NCBI GenBank assembly: GCA_027022065.1
Contig: JALVZS010000009.1
Location: forward strand, 1 to 5,185
Length of the DNA stretch: 5,185 bases
Direction of reading: 5' to 3'
Origin: a bacterium
GTDB taxonomy: Bacteria > Thermosulfidibacterota > Thermosulfidibacteria > Thermosulfidibacterales > Thermosulfidibacteraceae
The translations under genes were made by a program, and so were the position numbers. The notes under the pieces are model-generated. The model saw only the letters and a program-made list of their open reading frames with translations, did not search any database and was not told where the DNA came from. This document shows positions 1 to 5,185 of the stretch, piece by piece. The stretch's first letter is position 1, and the number at the start of each line of letters is the position of its first letter.

Positions 1-236
1 GTGTCTTTGGTACTACAAACAGAGCTTATACCGCATCCAGCATTCTTTAGGTTGAGCTTAAGCTGCTCACAGAACCTCAGATCCATTTTCTCAGCAAAGA
101 AATCAAAATCTTCAGAGTACCTGTGATTATACATCAAGGCTAACGCCGTGCCGCCTGCAAGGTAAAACCTTTCACCTACGCCAAATCTGGCAAGCAAGTC
201 TAAAATTTTCCTTTGCTCTTCTGTTAATTTCCTCAT
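1..236 (-). CDS. AbiEii/AbiGii-type nucleotidyltransferase, N-terminal part (runs off window)
   Basis: The first 78 codons of a gene whose 3' end lies outside the window. The translation starts MRKLTEEQRKILDLLARF and contains FYLAGGTALAL at about residues 24-34, followed by HRYSEDFDFF at 38-47. A GG-T motif followed by a D-x-D pair (D43, D45) is the nucleotidyltransferase-fold signature of the AbiEii/AbiGii toxin family, in which the acidic residues bind the metal and nucleotide. Members of that family act in abortive infection or toxin-antitoxin pairs, some by modifying tRNA ends; activity here is inferred from family only. An in-frame TAA at 242-240 sits just before the ATG at 236, so translation cannot begin earlier in this frame. 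No clear Shine-Dalgarno sequence precedes it, which fits translational coupling to the overlapping upstream gene. It could also be a housekeeping-like nucleotidyltransferase with no toxin role. Confidence 0.75.
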   Translation of the reverse strand, partial: MRKLTEEQRKILDLLARFGVGERFYLAGGTALALMYNHRYSEDFDFFAEKMDLRFCEQLKLNLKNAGCGISSVCSTKD

Positions 237-423
237 CGCTTATTTTGAGGCACCACTTCCAGAAATTGAGGTTAACTCTATCAAACCTGTGAAGATTGCC
301 AAGAAACAGCTCTCTAAGGTAATCCCTGTCGTAATCCCTCAACACACTAACAGGGTCATCCCAGAGCATTCTCCTGATCGCCAGCTCTTTTTCACTCCTG
401 CACCTATTCCAGTCAAACTTCAT
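172..423 (-). CDS. Small protein of unknown function, partner of the nucleotidyltransferase
   Basis: An 83-residue product starting MKFDWNRCRSEKELAIRRM, not assigned to a named family. It is highly charged and probably all-helical, with a central segment LRDYDRDYLRELFLGNLHRF rich in Arg, Asp and Leu and three Trp residues in its second half; no signal peptide or membrane segment is seen. The ATG at 423 lies 4 bases after the paaK stop; a longer frame beginning at 507 would lie over the paaK C-terminal coding sequence and is unlikely. The 3' end overlaps the next gene by 65 bases in another frame, which is unusually long. Its position directly before an AbiEii-like nucleotidyltransferase suggests an antitoxin-like or accessory partner, but that rests on context only. 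The long overlap could also mean that a frameshift has altered the natural C-terminus. Confidence 0.55.
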   Translation of the reverse strand: MKFDWNRCRSEKELAIRRMLWDDPVSVLRDYDRDYLRELFLGNLHRFDRVNLNFWKWCLKISDEEINRRAKENFRLACQIWRR

Positions 424-427
424 CCAC

Positions 428-1717
428 TCAGATGCCCGATCTTTTGTCCACAACCCTCTGGGCCTTACCGGGCTTTCTAGGGATGGTGCCCTCGGGAACC
501 AGCTCAAGATCCACCCTGAAGCCTAAAAAGTCGTAAAGGTGAGTGGCCAAATGTTCCCTGAGCTCCCCGTTGGAAACCCTGGATCCGTTTTTCACCTCAA
601 GAATCACCTTTACATAGGTCTTTCCCTTTTTCTCATCAATGATTATCTGGTACTCGTTTCCCACCTCTTTGTGACGCATAAGAATGGCCTCTATCTGTGA
701 GGGATAGAAGTTCACCCCTTTGACCTTGAGCATATCGTCTGTGCGTCCCTTGAGCCTGTCCACCCTCAGCATGGTCCTTCCACAGTCACAGCGCTCCCTG
801 GAGACTATCCTGGTTATATCCCTCGTTCTGTACCTTATTAAGGGAATCCCCTCCCTTGTGAGGGTGGTTACAACCATCTCTCCCTCTTCACCGTCGGGAA
901 GCACCTCTCCCGTCTCAGGATCCACAATCTCCACTATGTAGTGATCCTCCCACACATGGATGCCGCACTTGTACTGACAGTCTATTCCAAGACCAACGCC
1001 TCCCGTTTCCGTCATGCCAATGATATCGTAGGAGTCTATGCCCATCTCCTCCTCAATCCTCTTTCTCATCTCATCGGACCAGACCTCAGCACCGAATATG
1101 CCTATCCTTAGGTTGGTTTCGGAAAAGTCAAAGCCCTCATCCTTGGCCACCTCTATGAGCCTTAAAGGATACGAAGCTATGGCGCATATCACGGTGGTCC
1201 CCATCTCCTTCATAAGCTTTAGCTGAAGCATGGAGCGCCCCGCACCTATAGGGACCACCATACATCCTATCCTTTCGCACCCGTAGTGGAAACCAAATCC
1301 GCCGTTGAAAAGGCCAAAAGAAGGGGTTATCTGCACCACATCCCTGCTTGTAACCCCAGCAGCAGTAAGACAGCGAGCCATGATCTCAGCCCACTGCTCC
1401 ACATCGTTTCTCGTATAAAAGTTCACTATAGGCGTTCCCGTGGTGCCAGAGGACATGTGGAACCTGACGAAGGACTCTTTAGGTGCACAGGTGTAGGTAA
1501 AGGGATAGCCCTCCCTCAAGTCGTCTTTTGTTAAAAAGGGAAGATTCTTTAGATCGTCCAGGCTCTTTATGTCCTCCGGCTCAACCCGTCCTATCTTCTT
1601 CCAGTAAAAGGGATTGTTGTCCTTTATATGCCTTATGGTATCCCTAAGTCTTTCCAGTTGGAGCCTCTCAAGCTCCTCTCTGTCCATTCCCTCAAGACGC
1701 GGCTGATACATAGCCAT
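428..1717 (-). CDS. paaK: Phenylacetate-CoA ligase (AMP-forming)
   Basis: A 429-residue cytoplasmic enzyme, full length for the family, that activates phenylacetate or related arylacetates with ATP and CoA to the aryl-acetyl-CoA, AMP and PPi. The adenylate-forming motifs are present in order: P-loop SSGTTGTP at 89-96, YDIIGMTETGG at 230-240, YRTRD at 296-300, CDCGRT at 310-315 (typical of PaaK), RLKGRTDDMLKVKGVNFYPS at 321-340, and a C-terminal PRKPGKAQRV at 413-422 with the likely catalytic Lys417. The start at 1717 is chosen because AGGAGG lies 6 bases upstream; the next ATG at 1711 would be 12 bases away. It overlaps iorB by 26 bases, so the two are probably translationally coupled. In archaea and anaerobic bacteria paaK-like genes often neighbour iorAB, where the ligase supplies or recovers arylacetyl-CoA. 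The true substrate (phenyl-, hydroxyphenyl- or indoleacetate) cannot be read from the sequence. Confidence 0.95.
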   Translation of the reverse strand: MAMYQPRLEGMDREELERLQLERLRDTIRHIKDNNPFYWKKIGRVEPEDIKSLDDLKNLPFLTKDDLREGYPFTYTCAPKESFVRFHMSSGTTGTPIVNFYTRNDVEQWAEIMARCLTAAGVTSRDVVQITPSFGLFNGGFGFHYGCERIGCMVVPIGAGRSMLQLKLMKEMGTTVICAIASYPLRLIEVAKDEGFDFSETNLRIGIFGAEVWSDEMRKRIEEEMGIDSYDIIGMTETGGVGLGIDCQYKCGIHVWEDHYIVEIVDPETGEVLPDGEEGEMVVTTLTREGIPLIRYRTRDITRIVSRERCDCGRTMLRVDRLKGRTDDMLKVKGVNFYPSQIEAILMRHKEVGNEYQIIIDEKKGKTYVKVILEVKNGSRVSNGELREHLATHLYDFLGFRVDLELVPEGTIPRKPGKAQRVVDKRSGI

Positions 1718-2204
1718 CCTTCGCCTCCTGATATCCTATGGTTAACGCCTTTACATTGTAGTCCTTGTCTTTACCCAGAGATTTTAGAAACTTCAATCCA
1801 TCCTCCAGCTCAGCACCTAACAACCTTAAAAGAAGACCCGCCACCACCATATTAGCCACCCTTGGAAATAGGCCCTCCTTCTCCATCAACCCTTTCACAT
1901 CTATACCCTCAACAGGCAAGTTGTAACCAACCACAAGCGCATCCTCCCTGCAGTAAGCCTCTATCTTGTCAGACTCATCTGGATGAAGGAGAACCCCTAT
2001 ATCCGCCGTTTTGGGAAGTATCAAGGGGCAGTGGTAGTTTCCCACCTTCATAAAGGACACTACGCTTCCTCCCCTTGTGGCCATACCATGAGTTTCCGTA
2101 GAAATCACATTAAAGCCCTTCTCGGTAAGAACCGTGCCAAGAAGCCTTGTTAGAAGGACGATCCCCTGTCCCCCTGCTCCAGCGAATACAAGCTTTACAT
2201 CCAT
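1692..2204 (-). CDS. iorB: Indolepyruvate:ferredoxin oxidoreductase, beta subunit
   Basis: A 170-residue member of the pyruvate/ketoisovalerate oxidoreductase gamma-domain family. It begins MDVKLVFAGAGGQGIVLLTR with the hallmark GAGGQG loop at 9-14, followed by ETHGMATRGGSVVSF at 37-51, the second conserved block, and a helical C-terminal part with VANMVVAGLLLRLLG at 116-130. With the TPP- and iron-sulfur-containing alpha subunit IorA it would convert indole-, phenyl- or hydroxyphenylpyruvate plus CoA to the arylacetyl-CoA, CO2 and reduced ferredoxin; the reaction is reversible in anaerobes. The size is slightly short but both motifs are intact. The start is supported by GAGGGAG about 7 bases upstream and a 22-base gap after aroB'. 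No iorA is present in the window, so its partner must be encoded elsewhere. A gamma subunit of a different 2-oxoacid oxidoreductase is possible, but the paaK neighbour favours the aryl-specific enzyme. Confidence 0.87.
   Translation of the reverse strand: MDVKLVFAGAGGQGIVLLTRLLGTVLTEKGFNVISTETHGMATRGGSVVSFMKVGNYHCPLILPKTADIGVLLHPDESDKIEAYCREDALVVGYNLPVEGIDVKGLMEKEGLFPRVANMVVAGLLLRLLGAELEDGLKFLKSLGKDKDYNVKALTIGYQEAKDGYVSAAS
1724..1729 (-). promoter_or_regulatory. Ribosome-binding site of paaK
   Basis: A perfect AGGAGG on the minus strand inside the 3' end of iorB, 6 bases before the ATG at 1717. It decides the paaK start over the in-frame ATG at 1711. Confidence 0.8.
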
Positions 2205-2226: not shown

Positions 2227-3198
2227 TTAGCCTTCCTTTATCTTTTCCCTAACCTTCACGCCAAAGTGGCGGCCTGCCTCTGTAACATGGGCGAGCACCC
2301 TGTCTCCGGGCTTCAGCCTAACCACCGATATGGGAGAGCCATCAGGAGCAGTGAGCCTTATGGTTTCGGCATTCTGCAGGATCAAACTACCCTCTCTATC
2401 ATTATGGCGGGCCTTCACTATAAGAAGAGGCCTCACCTCGGTCTTGTTTCTTCCCACAACAGCTTCCCTTGCCTCTCCCTTGGCATTGACCACAAGCACC
2501 CTTTCCCCTGCTGAAAGCTCGCAAAGATACTTGGTCTTGTTCTCTGGGCAGAGGATATAGGCGTGCACCCCTCCCGCATTAACCCTAAAGGGCCTAGGGG
2601 CCACGTAGGGATTCTCTATGCTTTCTGAGTGAACAAGAAAGAGAAAGCCGCTTGTGTCTCCCACAAGCATCCCTTCGGACGGCGTCATAAGTTCCGTGGT
2701 ATCCACGCACACCCTGTATCCCATGCCCACAGGCCTTATCTCCGTAACTTCCGCCTCCACAAGCTCAAGGTTTAAGGTGCGCCTTTTAACAATCCTACCC
2801 ACCTCTTTAACTACAGAAGGGTCTTGAGTTTCAAGAAGTACCCCCTTTGTTCCCACCTCCAGAACCCCAATGGCAAGCTCCGCCTCCTCCGGACTCCTCA
2901 CCACGGCTATGATGTTCTGGGACTGAGAAACAAGATTTTCCAAGGGTATCACCTTCCAGTCCTTCCCATCCACAACAACAGGACCTGCCTTTGAAAGCTC
3001 AAGGGCCTTTAACTCATCCTCTTTTGAAGAAATCTCCACAAAGACCAGATCATCTATAGCAATGGCATCCACTATTCCAAGCTCTCTGACCTTTGGGATG
3101 TTCTCCCCTTCAACTATGACAGCATCCGCTCCTGCCTCTATGGCAGAGGTTACTATCTTCTTGTTCCAGGGAACCGCCTTTACCCAGAAAAGCTTCAT
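2227..3198 (-). CDS. aroB': 3-dehydroquinate synthase II (archaeal-type)
   Basis: A 323-residue enzyme of the AroB' family (EC 1.4.1.24), which uses NAD to oxidatively deaminate and cyclise 2-amino-3,7-dideoxy-D-threo-hept-6-ulosonate to 3-dehydroquinate. It replaces the DAHP-dependent AroB of most bacteria. The conserved blocks are clear: an N-terminal alpha/beta part starting [20 protein letters not shown], the family signature [17 protein letters not shown] at 177-193, and [19 protein letters not shown] at 196-214, followed by a beta-rich C-terminal domain ending in an HFGVKV segment. Length matches the family. Its ATG overlaps the TGA of aroA' in an ATGA arrangement (3195-3198), indicating translational coupling of two consecutive pathway enzymes. 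Expression is expected to depend on the attenuator upstream of aroA'. Confidence 0.95.
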
Positions 3199-3989
3199 TT
3201 GAGCACCTCCATGGCCTCCTCCACGCTGGCACCCTCATGCACTATCATGGATATGGCCCTCACCATGGCCACGGGATTCTCGTGCTGGAATACATTTCTT
3301 CCTATGGAAACCCCAGCTCCTCCAGCCTCCATGGCACCCTTCACCATCCTAAGCACATCCTCTGCCGTGTCCATCTTCTCGCCGCCGGCAATTACCACAG
3401 GAATGGGACATCCCTCCACAACCTCGGCAAAGCTCTCCGGGCTTCCGGTGTAGGGCACCTTAACTATGTCGGCTCCAAGCTCTGCTCCCACCCTTGCTGC
3501 ATGCTTCACCACAGAGGGATCATACTGGTTTCTTATCTTAGGCCCCCTCGCATAAACCATGGCCAGAAGAGGCATTCCCCACTCCAGGCACTTGGCAGAA
3601 ATCATGCCGAAATCCCTGAGCATGGTCATCTCATCCTCGGCTCCTATGTTGACGTGGATGGAAACTGCATCGGCGCCAAGCTTTATGGCCTCCTCTACGG
3701 TGCACACCAGCACCTTGTTGTTGGGTGTGGGAGAAAGGCAGGTGCTTGCAGAAAGGTGGACTATCAGACCAATATCCCTTCCCCTCTTCCTATGCCCCAC
3801 AGGTACTATACCCTTGTGGATCACAATGGCGTTGGCCCCTCCTTCCGCCACCTTGTCAATGATCTCCCGCATATTGATTAAGCCCCTTATAGGTCCCACC
3901 GTAATGCCGTGATCCATAGGAACGATAACGGTTTTGCCCTTTTCCCTGTCCATTATCCTCTCAAGCCTGATCTCTTTACCTACTATCAT
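3195..3989 (-). CDS. aroA': 2-amino-3,7-dideoxy-D-threo-hept-6-ulosonate (ADH) synthase, DeoC/FbaB-type aldolase
   Basis: A 264-residue class I aldolase that performs the first step of the alternative route to dehydroquinate, joining 6-deoxy-5-ketofructose 1-phosphate and aspartate semialdehyde to give ADH (family knowledge, from the Methanocaldococcus enzyme MJ0400). Visible features of the TIM barrel are [11 protein letters not shown] at 23-33 with the likely catalytic Asp26, [11 protein letters not shown] at 144-154 with Tyr146, [13 protein letters not shown] at 173-185 with the Schiff-base Lys177, and IAGGEK plus [13 protein letters not shown] as the phosphate-binding loops near the C-terminus. 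The start at 3989 is preferred because it is preceded by a purine-rich GAGGGGGGTGGAGAG; the in-frame ATG at 4028 would put the N-terminus across a terminator hairpin and U tract. It is the first gene of the aromatic operon. A related fructose-bisphosphate aldolase function is possible, but the adjoining aroB' makes ADH synthase the best call. Confidence 0.95.
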
Positions 3990-4004
3990 CTCTCCACCCC
4001 CCTC
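3990..4004 (-). promoter_or_regulatory. Ribosome-binding region of aroA'
   Basis: On the minus strand the bases GAGGGGGGTGGAGAG run directly into the ATG at 3989. The purine-rich stretch lies immediately downstream of the attenuator's U tract, so it is only present on read-through transcripts. It fixes the aroA' start at 3989 rather than 4028. Confidence 0.65.
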
Positions 4005-4009
4005 AGTTG

Positions 4010-4054
4010 ATAATAAAAAAAGGGCCATGGGAGCAGAAAGCTTCCATGGCCCTT
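4010..4054 (-). terminator. Intrinsic terminator of the aromatic attenuator (arms 4:5)
   Basis: Read on the minus strand, AAGGGCCATGG (4054-4044) pairs perfectly over 11 bases with CCATGGCCCTT (4030-4020). One A/C mismatch and three more pairs (AGC with GCT) close a TTTCT loop. The stem runs directly into five further U residues and AUUAU, giving a classic GC-rich hairpin plus U tract. It ends about 20 bases before the aroA' start codon, so it must be bypassed for the operon to be expressed. It would also end any transcript coming through from the upstream nucleotidyltransferase gene. Arm 4 can instead pair with arm 3, which would prevent this hairpin. Confidence 0.88.
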
Positions 4055-4079
4055 CTGGAAAATTTTTTAAGGGCCATGG
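4044..4079 (-). promoter_or_regulatory. Antiterminator pairing (arms 3:4)
   Basis: Minus-strand CCATGGCCCTT (4079-4069) is perfectly complementary over 11 bases to AAGGGCCATGG (4054-4044), with a 14-base A/T-rich loop. This pairing uses the entire 5' arm of the terminator, so the two hairpins are mutually exclusive. It should form when arm 3 is not held by arm 2. Confidence 0.75.
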
Positions 4080-4106
4080 GGGGCTTGAGGCCCGCCCATG
4101 GCCCTT
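4069..4106 (-). promoter_or_regulatory. Anti-antiterminator hairpin (arms 2:3)
   Basis: Minus-strand AAGGGCCATGGG (4106-4095) pairs over 12 bases with CCCATGGCCCTT (4080-4069). After a single bulged C at 4094, four further pairs (GGGC with GCCC) close a CTCAA loop. It holds arm 3 away from arm 4 and so favours the terminator. It has no U tract and is unlikely to terminate by itself on this strand. Confidence 0.75.
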
Positions 4107-4144
4107 TGTAGGCCTTACCTTTTAGGGCGCCATGGACGGGCCCC
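4087..4144 (-). promoter_or_regulatory. Sensor hairpin (arms 1:2) spanning the end of the leader peptide frame
   Basis: Minus-strand bases 4144-4124 can pair with 4105-4087 over 19 base pairs, interrupted only by a two-base bulge (4128-4127) and including two G-U pairs. The 5' arm starts three bases after the run of aromatic codons and lies inside the leader frame; the leader stop codon is in the 18-base loop. A ribosome paused in the aromatic run would leave this stem free to form and occupy arm 2. A ribosome that reaches the stop codon would disrupt arm 1. The pairing was found by hand, not by a folding program. Confidence 0.75.
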
Positions 4145-4231
4145 CTTAAAGTAATACCACCAAAAGTAGAAGAAATCTTTGGACACTGTCTGGAAGGAAG
4201 GTGCTATGTATGCAACACTAATTCTACCCAT
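4115..4231 (-). CDS. Aromatic-rich attenuator leader peptide
   Basis: A 38-codon frame from ATG at 4231 to TAA at 4117-4115, inside the leader of the aroA' operon. The peptide begins [19 protein letters not shown]; residues 20-28 are FFYFWWYYF, nine aromatic residues in succession covering Phe, Tyr and Trp, and the tail GARPWRPKR is basic and adds one more Trp. Such a run is not expected by chance and is the hallmark of a leader peptide in ribosome-mediated attenuation, comparable in principle to TrpL or PheL but apparently sensing all three aromatic amino acids. The product itself is probably not functional. No Shine-Dalgarno sequence precedes the ATG; the predicted transcription start is only about 2-4 bases upstream, so translation may be essentially leaderless. 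An in-frame GTG at codon 16 is an alternative start and would keep the aromatic run. Confidence 0.88.
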
Positions 4232-4235
4232 CTTG

Positions 4236-4249
4236 GTTAAAATTTTAAC
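4236..4249. repeat. 14-base perfect palindrome overlapping the -10 element
   Basis: GTTAAAATTTTAAC is a perfect inverted repeat placed between the stop codon of the upstream gene and the leader peptide start, covering the predicted -10 box. It could be an operator half-site pair for a repressor, or simply the A/T-rich surroundings of the promoter. Confidence 0.35.
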
Positions 4250-4271
4250 ATTCACGGGTGAGCCTTGTCAA
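4242..4271 (-). promoter_or_regulatory. Sigma70-type promoter of the aromatic operon
   Basis: On the minus strand a consensus TTGACA (4271-4266) is followed after 18 bases by TAAAAT (4247-4242), five of six matches to TATAAT. The -35 box lies within the last codons of the upstream nucleotidyltransferase gene. The expected transcription start is near 4233-4236, just before the leader ATG at 4231, giving a leader of roughly 245 bases before aroA'. The position fits the downstream attenuator well. Confidence 0.7.
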
Positions 4272-5185
4272 CACTTGCCCCTTCAATAAGCCTCTTTACA
4301 TACTCAAGCTCTTCTTCCTTTGTGTTAACCTCGCCCTTTATCTTCGCCTCAAGAACCTTGTTCAGAAGCTTGCTAAAGAGAGGTCCCGGAGTGAGTCCAA
4401 GCTTTATAAGATCCCTCCCACCTATAGCGGTCTTTATGTCCATCCACTCCATTAGGTATCTTCCTATCTTGCGCTGGGTTTCCTCATCGGCTCTGGCCAT
4501 GTAGTAGAGGATAGCTTCCAAAGGCTGATTCCTCAGTGTGAAATACACTTTTGCGTCATCCTCTGCCTTCCTCAGCTCCCAAAGCACCTTGTGGGCTTGG
4601 AATATACCCGTGGATATTATCTCTTTCTCCGACTTCGCCATGCCAAACCAGTGGGTAAGCCTCTCCACCTCCTCGGGCTTAAGCTTGTTCAGTAGGATCA
4701 TCATGTTCACCATCCATGTCTCCGGCTGCTTTCTTTTAAAGAGAAGCTCGTACCAGGAAAGCACCTCCTGGGCCCTGTCAAAAAGCTCCTCCATCTCCTC
4801 ATCCACCCTTATCTTTGGGTGAACGAACCTGAGTATCCCTAGATCCTGCATCCTTTTGACCATAAGCAGTGCGTTCTTTTCGTCCAGCATGTGCTTAAGC
4901 TCATTAAAAACCCTCTTTCCAGAAAGCCTTTCAAATATCCCGTCCCTAACGGCAAGTCTTATAAGCCTTTCCGTTTGGGCCCCTATTCTGAACCCGTATC
5001 TCTGCTCAAACCTTACGGCCCTAAAGGCGCGGGTAGGATCCTCAACGAAACTGAGATTGTGTATAACTCTTATCACCTTGTCCTTTAGATCCCTTAATCC
5101 CCCGTAGTAATCTATTAAGGTATAGGCGTCTTCTCCCGTTATCTTTATGGCCATGGCGTTTATGGTAAAATCCCTTCTATAAAGG
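4252..5185 (-). CDS. tRNA nucleotidyltransferase / poly(A) polymerase family protein, C-terminal part (5' end outside window)
   Basis: The visible 310 codons begin mid-gene with LYRRDFTINAMAIKI; RRDFTINAMA is motif B of class II CCA-adding and poly(A) polymerases, and the Met within it at 5154 is not the start. It is followed by GLRDLKDKVIRVIHNLSFVE (motif C region) and EDPTRAFRAVRFEQRYGFRI, motif D, whose Asp and Arg select the incoming nucleotide. The remaining ~240 residues are the helical neck, body and tail that bind tRNA. The enzyme would add or repair the 3' CCA, or only its A or CC part. The EDPTRAFRAVRFEQRYGF wording is typical of the long DHH-CBS-CBS-polymerase proteins of Deltaproteobacteria and Aquificota, several of which are A-adding enzymes; the N-terminal domains would lie beyond the window. 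The catalytic DxD of the head domain is also outside it. Its transcript would be ended by the attenuator terminator at 4054-4010. Confidence 0.92.
   Translation of the reverse strand, partial: LYRRDFTINAMAIKITGEDAYTLIDYYGGLRDLKDKVIRVIHNLSFVEDPTRAFRAVRFEQRYGFRIGAQTERLIRLAVRDGIFERLSGKRVFNELKHMLDEKNALLMVKRMQDLGILRFVHPKIRVDEEMEELFDRAQEVLSWYELLFKRKQPETWMVNMMILLNKLKPEEVERLTHWFGMAKSEKEIISTGIFQAHKVLWELRKAEDDAKVYFTLRNQPLEAILYYMARADEETQRKIGRYLMEWMDIKTAIGGRDLIKLGLTPGPLFSKLLNKVLEAKIKGEVNTKEEELEYVKRLIEGASVDKAHP

Follow-up and report, generated by a model that had tools for sequence, protein, structure and literature searches.

A leader peptide gene ahead of aroA'-aroB' with which a deep-branching bacterium very probably senses its whole aromatic amino acid supply

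The window (the whole stretch of DNA analysed, 5,185 nucleotides) contains a short open reading frame located between a tRNA nucleotidyltransferase gene and the gene pair aroA'-aroB', which provides the archaeal-type entry into aromatic synthesis. The frame and its neighboring genes, in the order in which the minus strand is read, are as follows.

4252 to 5184, minus strand: C-terminal part of an A-adding tRNA nucleotidyltransferase-like gene, the upstream neighbor of the leader (NF041569, profile positions 581-878 of 880, below cut-off)
4115 to 4231, minus strand: leader peptide gene, 38 aa, from ATG at 4231 to TAA at 4117-4115, with homologous leaders in relatives
4148 to 4174, minus strand: putative regulatory codon run Phe-Phe-Tyr-Phe-Trp-Trp-Tyr-Tyr-Phe (codons 20-28), from the sequence and selection for the aromatic class
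3990 to 4002, minus strand: purine-rich ribosome binding site of aroA' (GGGGGGTGGAGAG), from the sequence
3195 to 3989, minus strand: aroA', 2-amino-3,7-dideoxy-D-threo-hept-6-ulosonate synthase, the putative first regulated gene (TIGR01949, above cut-off)
2227 to 3198, minus strand: aroB', 3-dehydroquinate synthase II (PF01959)
1692 to 2204, minus strand: indolepyruvate oxidoreductase beta-subunit-like protein of the POR family (PF01558 above cut-off, NCBIfam below cut-offs)
428 to 1717, minus strand: phenylacetate-CoA ligase-like protein of the PaaK family (profile search)

A preliminary description had placed the run FFYFWWYYF at codons 20-28 (4174-4148) of a 38-codon frame, before an aromatic-biosynthesis operon and a terminator. 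Re-reading of the minus strand confirms the run, both downstream genes are identified by their profiles, and a hairpin that resembles a terminator and carries a T7 tract (4054-4015) stands ahead of aroA'. Regarding start codons, GTG 4255 is the alternative start of the mechanically called leader ORF and lies 5' of the predicted transcription start. For aroA', ATG 3989 was taken as the start; the longest ORF begins at 4028, but a start inside the terminator is unlikely to be the true one. At the contig edge lies the start of an AbiEii-family nucleotidyltransferase (PF08843, 3-236); in the same part of the window (3-507), a short ORF belonging to no known family (172-507) overlaps the 5' end of this gene as well as the last part of the PaaK gene.

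The following strong promoter can be predicted directly upstream of the leader.

4242 to 4271, minus strand: predicted sigma70-type promoter, -35 box TTGACA at 4271-4266, 18-nt spacer, -10 box TAAAAT at 4247-4242 (11 of 12 consensus matches)

In the window, the -35 box falls on the final codons of the upstream gene, and the -10 box, assigned by consensus match, ends 10 nt ahead of the leader ATG. Among the nine genomes sampled from the phylum, all of one order, an exact TTGACA is found at each of the nine aroA' leaders with a predicted gap of 7-10 nt between -10 box and ATG (5-11 nt in the trpE and livH-like leaders of the phylum), the -10 boxes being weaker than the -35 boxes with 3 to 5 of 6 consensus matches. 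There is no room for a Shine-Dalgarno sequence before the aroA' leader; purine-rich sites are present in the leuA leaders of the phylum and in many leaders of Desulfobacterota. Because the predicted promoter lies only 7-10 nt before the start codon, the leader mRNA of this phylum is probably leaderless or nearly so. A precedent is the leaderless attenuator trpL from S. meliloti, whose mRNA begins at the leader AUG, as may hold for the aroA' leader, but which senses Trp only and precedes trpE(G) (PMC7298713).

Between 4255 and 4005, the RNA folds with z = -6.1, and five segments can be distinguished in it from the end of the leader onwards.

4125 to 4145, minus strand: segment A, within the final codons of the leader, GGGGGCCCGTCCATGGCGCCC; with B it forms the putative antiterminator (alignment, covariation)
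4089 to 4106, minus strand: segment B, AAGGGCCATGGGCGGGCC, pairs with A or C (alignment, covariation)
4069 to 4084, minus strand: segment C, GCCCCCCATGGCCCTT, pairs with B or D (alignment, covariation)
4040 to 4054, minus strand: segment D, AAGGGCCATGGAAGC, pairs with C or E (alignment)
4015 to 4034, minus strand: segment E with the T7 tract, GCTCCCATGGCCCTTTTTTT; D:E is the predicted intrinsic terminator (folding, alignment)

Helices A:B and B:C are mutually exclusive, having segment B in common, and the same holds for C:D and the terminator D:E. Each of the nine phylum genomes keeps all 9 core pairs of A:B, with compensatory changes, while B:C is paired at 98% and C:D at 93%; D:E is intact in eight of the nine, and the genome without it (G003) has a T run after B:C instead, a position where the window has no T tract. 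When 28 sequences from both the phylum and Desulfobacterota are considered together, A:B is 90% paired with double (compensatory) changes in 7 of 8 pairs and B:C is 95% paired with such changes in 7 of 9 pairs; the covariation scores of these two helices were reached by none of 500 shuffles, and the share of paired cells drops to 26-53% once either helix is slid. In a separate test over 40 loci, comparison with shuffled A segments gave a mean z of -3.5 in favor of A:B (the automatic choice of hairpin was wrong in L007 and L121, and L007 was judged by alignment). The pairing is also kept despite a different sequence in a subgroup of four loci (L053, L069, L077, and L088) and in L079. In most loci, A starts 0-9 nt past the last aromatic codon, and segment A, read as codons, gives the Gly-Leu-Pro that is conserved after the aromatic run. 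In Desulfobacterota leaders, B:C is followed by a T run, and a second terminator, D:E, frequently comes after it; these leaders and G003 represent a three-segment form in which B:C itself would be the terminator, with the same logic.

Taken together, these features make it very likely that the frame is a ribosome-mediated transcription attenuator that would tune aroA'-aroB', the common trunk of the pathway, to the combined charging of tRNA-Phe, tRNA-Tyr, and tRNA-Trp. Whenever any of these charged tRNAs runs short, the ribosome would stall in FFYFWWYYF and leave segment A free to pair with B. In the five-segment form of the window, A:B would free C, the resulting C:D would block the terminator D:E, and transcription would enter aroA'; in the three-segment form, A:B alone would remove the terminator B:C. 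When all aromatics are plentiful, the ribosome would run through A to the stop codon and cover A, allowing B:C and then D:E to form, with termination as the outcome. Translation of the leader, ribosome stalling, termination, and the timing of folding are what we infer. As to the last of these, A:B plus C:D (-65.6 kcal/mol) is 6.7 kcal/mol less stable than A:B plus D:E (-72.3 kcal/mol) in a folding model set for 37°C, which may not be the growth temperature of the host. Because of this difference, antitermination in the window should require that C:D form before E is transcribed.

The element has the makeup by which attenuators of this class are recognized: a short upstream frame in which codons for the end products abound, mutually exclusive helices placed such that a stalled or a moving ribosome can decide between them, and an intrinsic terminator before the first structural gene (D:E with its T7 tract in the window, B:C with a T run in Desulfobacterota). 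E. coli trpL, pheL, and pheST likewise combine end-product codons in a short leader with mutually exclusive antiterminator and terminator hairpins, although each of them serves one amino acid; moreover, stalling in trpL hides segment 1, whereas stalling in the aroA' element should leave A free for the antiterminator. A cascade of pairings through more than four alternating segments to the terminator is known from the his operon attenuator of enterics, which, however, uses His codons and hence a single amino acid. The closest tested counterpart is the AroR-aroF attenuator from C. glutamicum, where ribosome stalling raises transcription and mixed aromatic codons (Phe-Tyr-Phe) precede a shikimate entry enzyme; it differs in controlling the DAHP synthase gene aroF rather than aroA'-aroB' and in having three aromatic codons, without Trp (PMC11802643). 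The uORFC-13-1 motif from Acholeplasma, also predicted to be an attenuator, has one or more Phe codons ahead of aroF, a gene for entry into the shikimate pathway, but gene and taxon differ and it is for Phe only (PMC8632094). Regarding RNA families, Trp_leader (RF00513) and Phe_leader (RF01859) have no match in the window at E-values up to 5 or, at the gathering cut-off, in 15 relatives, and an Rfam scan of the window and these relatives returned no relevant family. No leader or attenuation of aroA'-aroB' was found described in the open-access literature, nor an attenuator from Desulfobacterota or a control of DVU0460, most subscription journals being outside this search. The mechanism is of a known kind; what is new is its target, the sensing of three amino acids, its spread across phyla, and its segment logic.

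In related genomes, the aromatic run was expected to be conserved upstream of aroA' amid divergent flanks, and this comparison bore out the expectation in two phyla. In the phylum itself, an aromatic-rich leader stands directly before aroA' in nine of nine genomes, despite differing upstream genes and flanks, and all nine leaders contain all three aromatics (e.g., MMKMNYRIFNWFWFYYWWGLPMRSLSA in G004 and MMRRDAFWWFWFYYGRCLPSRPSGCYF in G008); the closest public records are MAGs labelled Aquificota, Deferribacteres, or just "bacterium". A scan for AroA' over 84,980 species yielded a first set of 80 loci, about half of which have a similar leader (e.g., MAHNFSSNFFNYYWYYFFSTGLPGVR and MNNIFSGSFYYSYFWWYYITGLPGCMN), nearly all in phylum members or Desulfobacterota, with one leader-bearing record titled Spirochaetes. 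By score, 35 of the 80 loci reach at least seven aromatic residues in ten, vs. 13 of 2246 control stretches. In a second set of 30 unselected Desulfobacterales aroA' loci (one of which, L194, is the same locus as L059 of the first), leaders with Phe/Tyr/Trp runs were found in 28 and were missing from two; the upstream 450 nt hold a short ORF with at least seven aromatics in ten in 24 of the 30, four further leaders scoring lower, vs. 1 of 396 control stretches taken elsewhere in these loci. The downstream genes in Desulfobacterota are variously aroB', pheA, aroD, aroE, and those for shikimate kinase or EPSP synthase. In the first set, no leader is seen at three Desulfobacterota loci (L054, L080, and L114), and none was found at distant aroA' homologues, i.e., those of Aquificota, Desulfurobacteriaceae, Sedimentisphaerales, archaea, and second copies such as L031. 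Because these distant homologues do without it, the leader is not a fixed companion of aroA'. L031 (G003:C206), a second copy in G003 (66% identical), was perhaps acquired horizontally or is perhaps contamination. In L118, upstream of aroA', stops break the leader frame within the aromatic run (VAHNLSGKCYRYFF*), perhaps by duplication or assembly error. No aroA' relatives were found in viral contigs. Several aroA' leaders of Desulfobacterota have no Trp, and the Trp part of the sensor may not be general.

When a covariance model built from the aroA' elements was run on the same genomes, further elements on the same scaffold were recovered. LLLL precedes leuA in G002, G004, G005, and G007 (LeuA being identified in G007 and assigned by similarity in the others) and is also found in G001, at a contig end beyond which the gene is not seen. 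WWW(W) leaders precede trpE in five genomes of the phylum and livH-like permeases in three, and three have WWW ahead of an operon that includes a TrpB-like gene. A mostly FFF(F) leader with a similar hairpin stands before one PaaK paralogue, distinct from that of the window, in five genomes; in G002, the same paralogue has the mixed run EYFWFYF. In Desulfobacterota, where the genes were named by reading and not by profile, trpE is preceded by WWW and leuA by LLLLL; an ilvD-like gene has Ile-Leu codons ahead of it, and Phe-Tyr runs stand ahead of an aminotransferase and a transporter binding protein. Only the trunk (aroA') leaders mix the three aromatics in every one of the nine phylum genomes, and no aromatic leader was seen at the pheA loci of the same genomes. 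Since the leaders that stand ahead of the corresponding branch genes in these genomes are each for a single amino acid (Trp, Leu, or Phe), the trunk mixture seems to be a product of selection. Comparative sequence provides the frame, the aromatic run, the competing and covarying helices, and the match between codons and pathway in the sister elements. The earlier proposal of a leader peptide that reads the aromatic supply before aroA'-aroB' gains support from the conservation in two phyla, the covarying helices, and the single-amino-acid sister leaders.

Selection on the codons can be followed by comparing leaders that are 70-99.5% identical, in pairs that are not independent: among one-base differences touching an aromatic codon, 14 are synonymous, 57 exchange one aromatic for another (all Phe-Tyr), and 14 lead to another residue, so that the aromatic is kept in 57 of the 71 amino-acid-changing differences (80%, vs. 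14% expected from the code). Conservation does not extend to residues outside the run, while Phe and Tyr interchange within it. It could be argued that the attenuator effectively senses one amino acid, e.g., Phe or Trp, with the other aromatic codons as passengers, since AroR holds Phe-Tyr-Phe yet responds to Phe limitation only (PMC11802643) and the codons closest to segment A should count most. This is rather unlikely, if worth keeping in mind, in view of the three aromatics in all nine phylum leaders, the free swapping of Phe and Tyr within runs, and the Trp-only and mostly Phe leaders that the same lineage places before trpE and a PaaK gene.

Any role as a small functional protein, such as a membrane or regulatory micropeptide, instead of a sensor of charged tRNAs is very improbable. 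While an aromatic-rich peptide could be bioactive, and the leader peptide of S. meliloti trpL also acts in trans (PMC7298713), such a role fits poorly with the variable residues and the Phe/Tyr interchange just described, and the conserved GLP is accounted for by nucleotide pairing between A and B. Slightly less credible still is an aromatic metabolite riboswitch or protein-binding antiterminator with an incidental frame: the RNA structure is strong, but it has no Rfam match, and codon content follows the pathway product across the sister elements. That the upstream gene simply has these hairpins as its ordinary terminator, with a spacer following and the frame arising by chance, is the least credible of all, for while the -35 box overlaps the end of that gene and genes often end in paired GC-rich hairpins, leader, promoter, and helices are constant where the upstream genes of relatives differ, conservation and the enrichment over control stretches rule out a chance ORF, and the covariation of A:B rules out an upstream-gene terminator only.

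Returning to the attenuator, on balance the elements appear to form a modular family that crosses phyla, in which one scaffold is recoded for each pathway (Leu for leuA, Trp for trpE, Phe for PaaK, three aromatics for aroA'-aroB') and the trunk leader would act as an OR gate for a shortage of any aromatic, on a leaderless mRNA. An entry into aromatic synthesis for which no regulation was found described would thereby gain a testable control device, with a three-amino-acid sensor at the shared trunk beside one-amino-acid sensors at the branches on a common RNA scaffold. The device occurs across at least one further large phylum of bacteria, being present in most of the sampled Desulfobacterales as well as in a whole uncultured lineage.

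With the leader codons naming the end product, functions can also be proposed for the genes that follow, e.g., from Phe before a PaaK-family gene or Trp before livH-like transporters. The PaaK-paralogue loci are L237/L176 (G007:C132), L234, L228, L236, L233, and L222, with MICGGGFFFFGRLGP as an example of their leaders, and the Phe leader suggests that this paralogue serves the synthesis of aromatic amino acids from arylacetates. Trp-rich leaders (e.g., MKGFNINQAWWWWQGLVCPLRA) lie ahead of livH-like ABC permeases in L160, L164, L177, and L182, and these permeases, named as branched-chain transporters, may in fact carry tryptophan or aromatics. In L159, L166, and L168, the WWW leader is followed by a predicted secreted or outer-membrane-like protein and then by the TrpB-like (TrpB2) gene. 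Around position 1500 of L185 (G066), the Phe-Tyr leader MAFSTRQTVLQSYYYFFYYFSGEGSVR precedes the substrate-binding protein of an ABC transporter, a candidate aromatic amino acid importer. Finally, L188 (G060) has the leader MILSNVLNNLISIIILLVISVSNHDEQGW ahead of the ilvD-like gene and may represent a mixed Ile/Leu/Val attenuator on a similar RNA.
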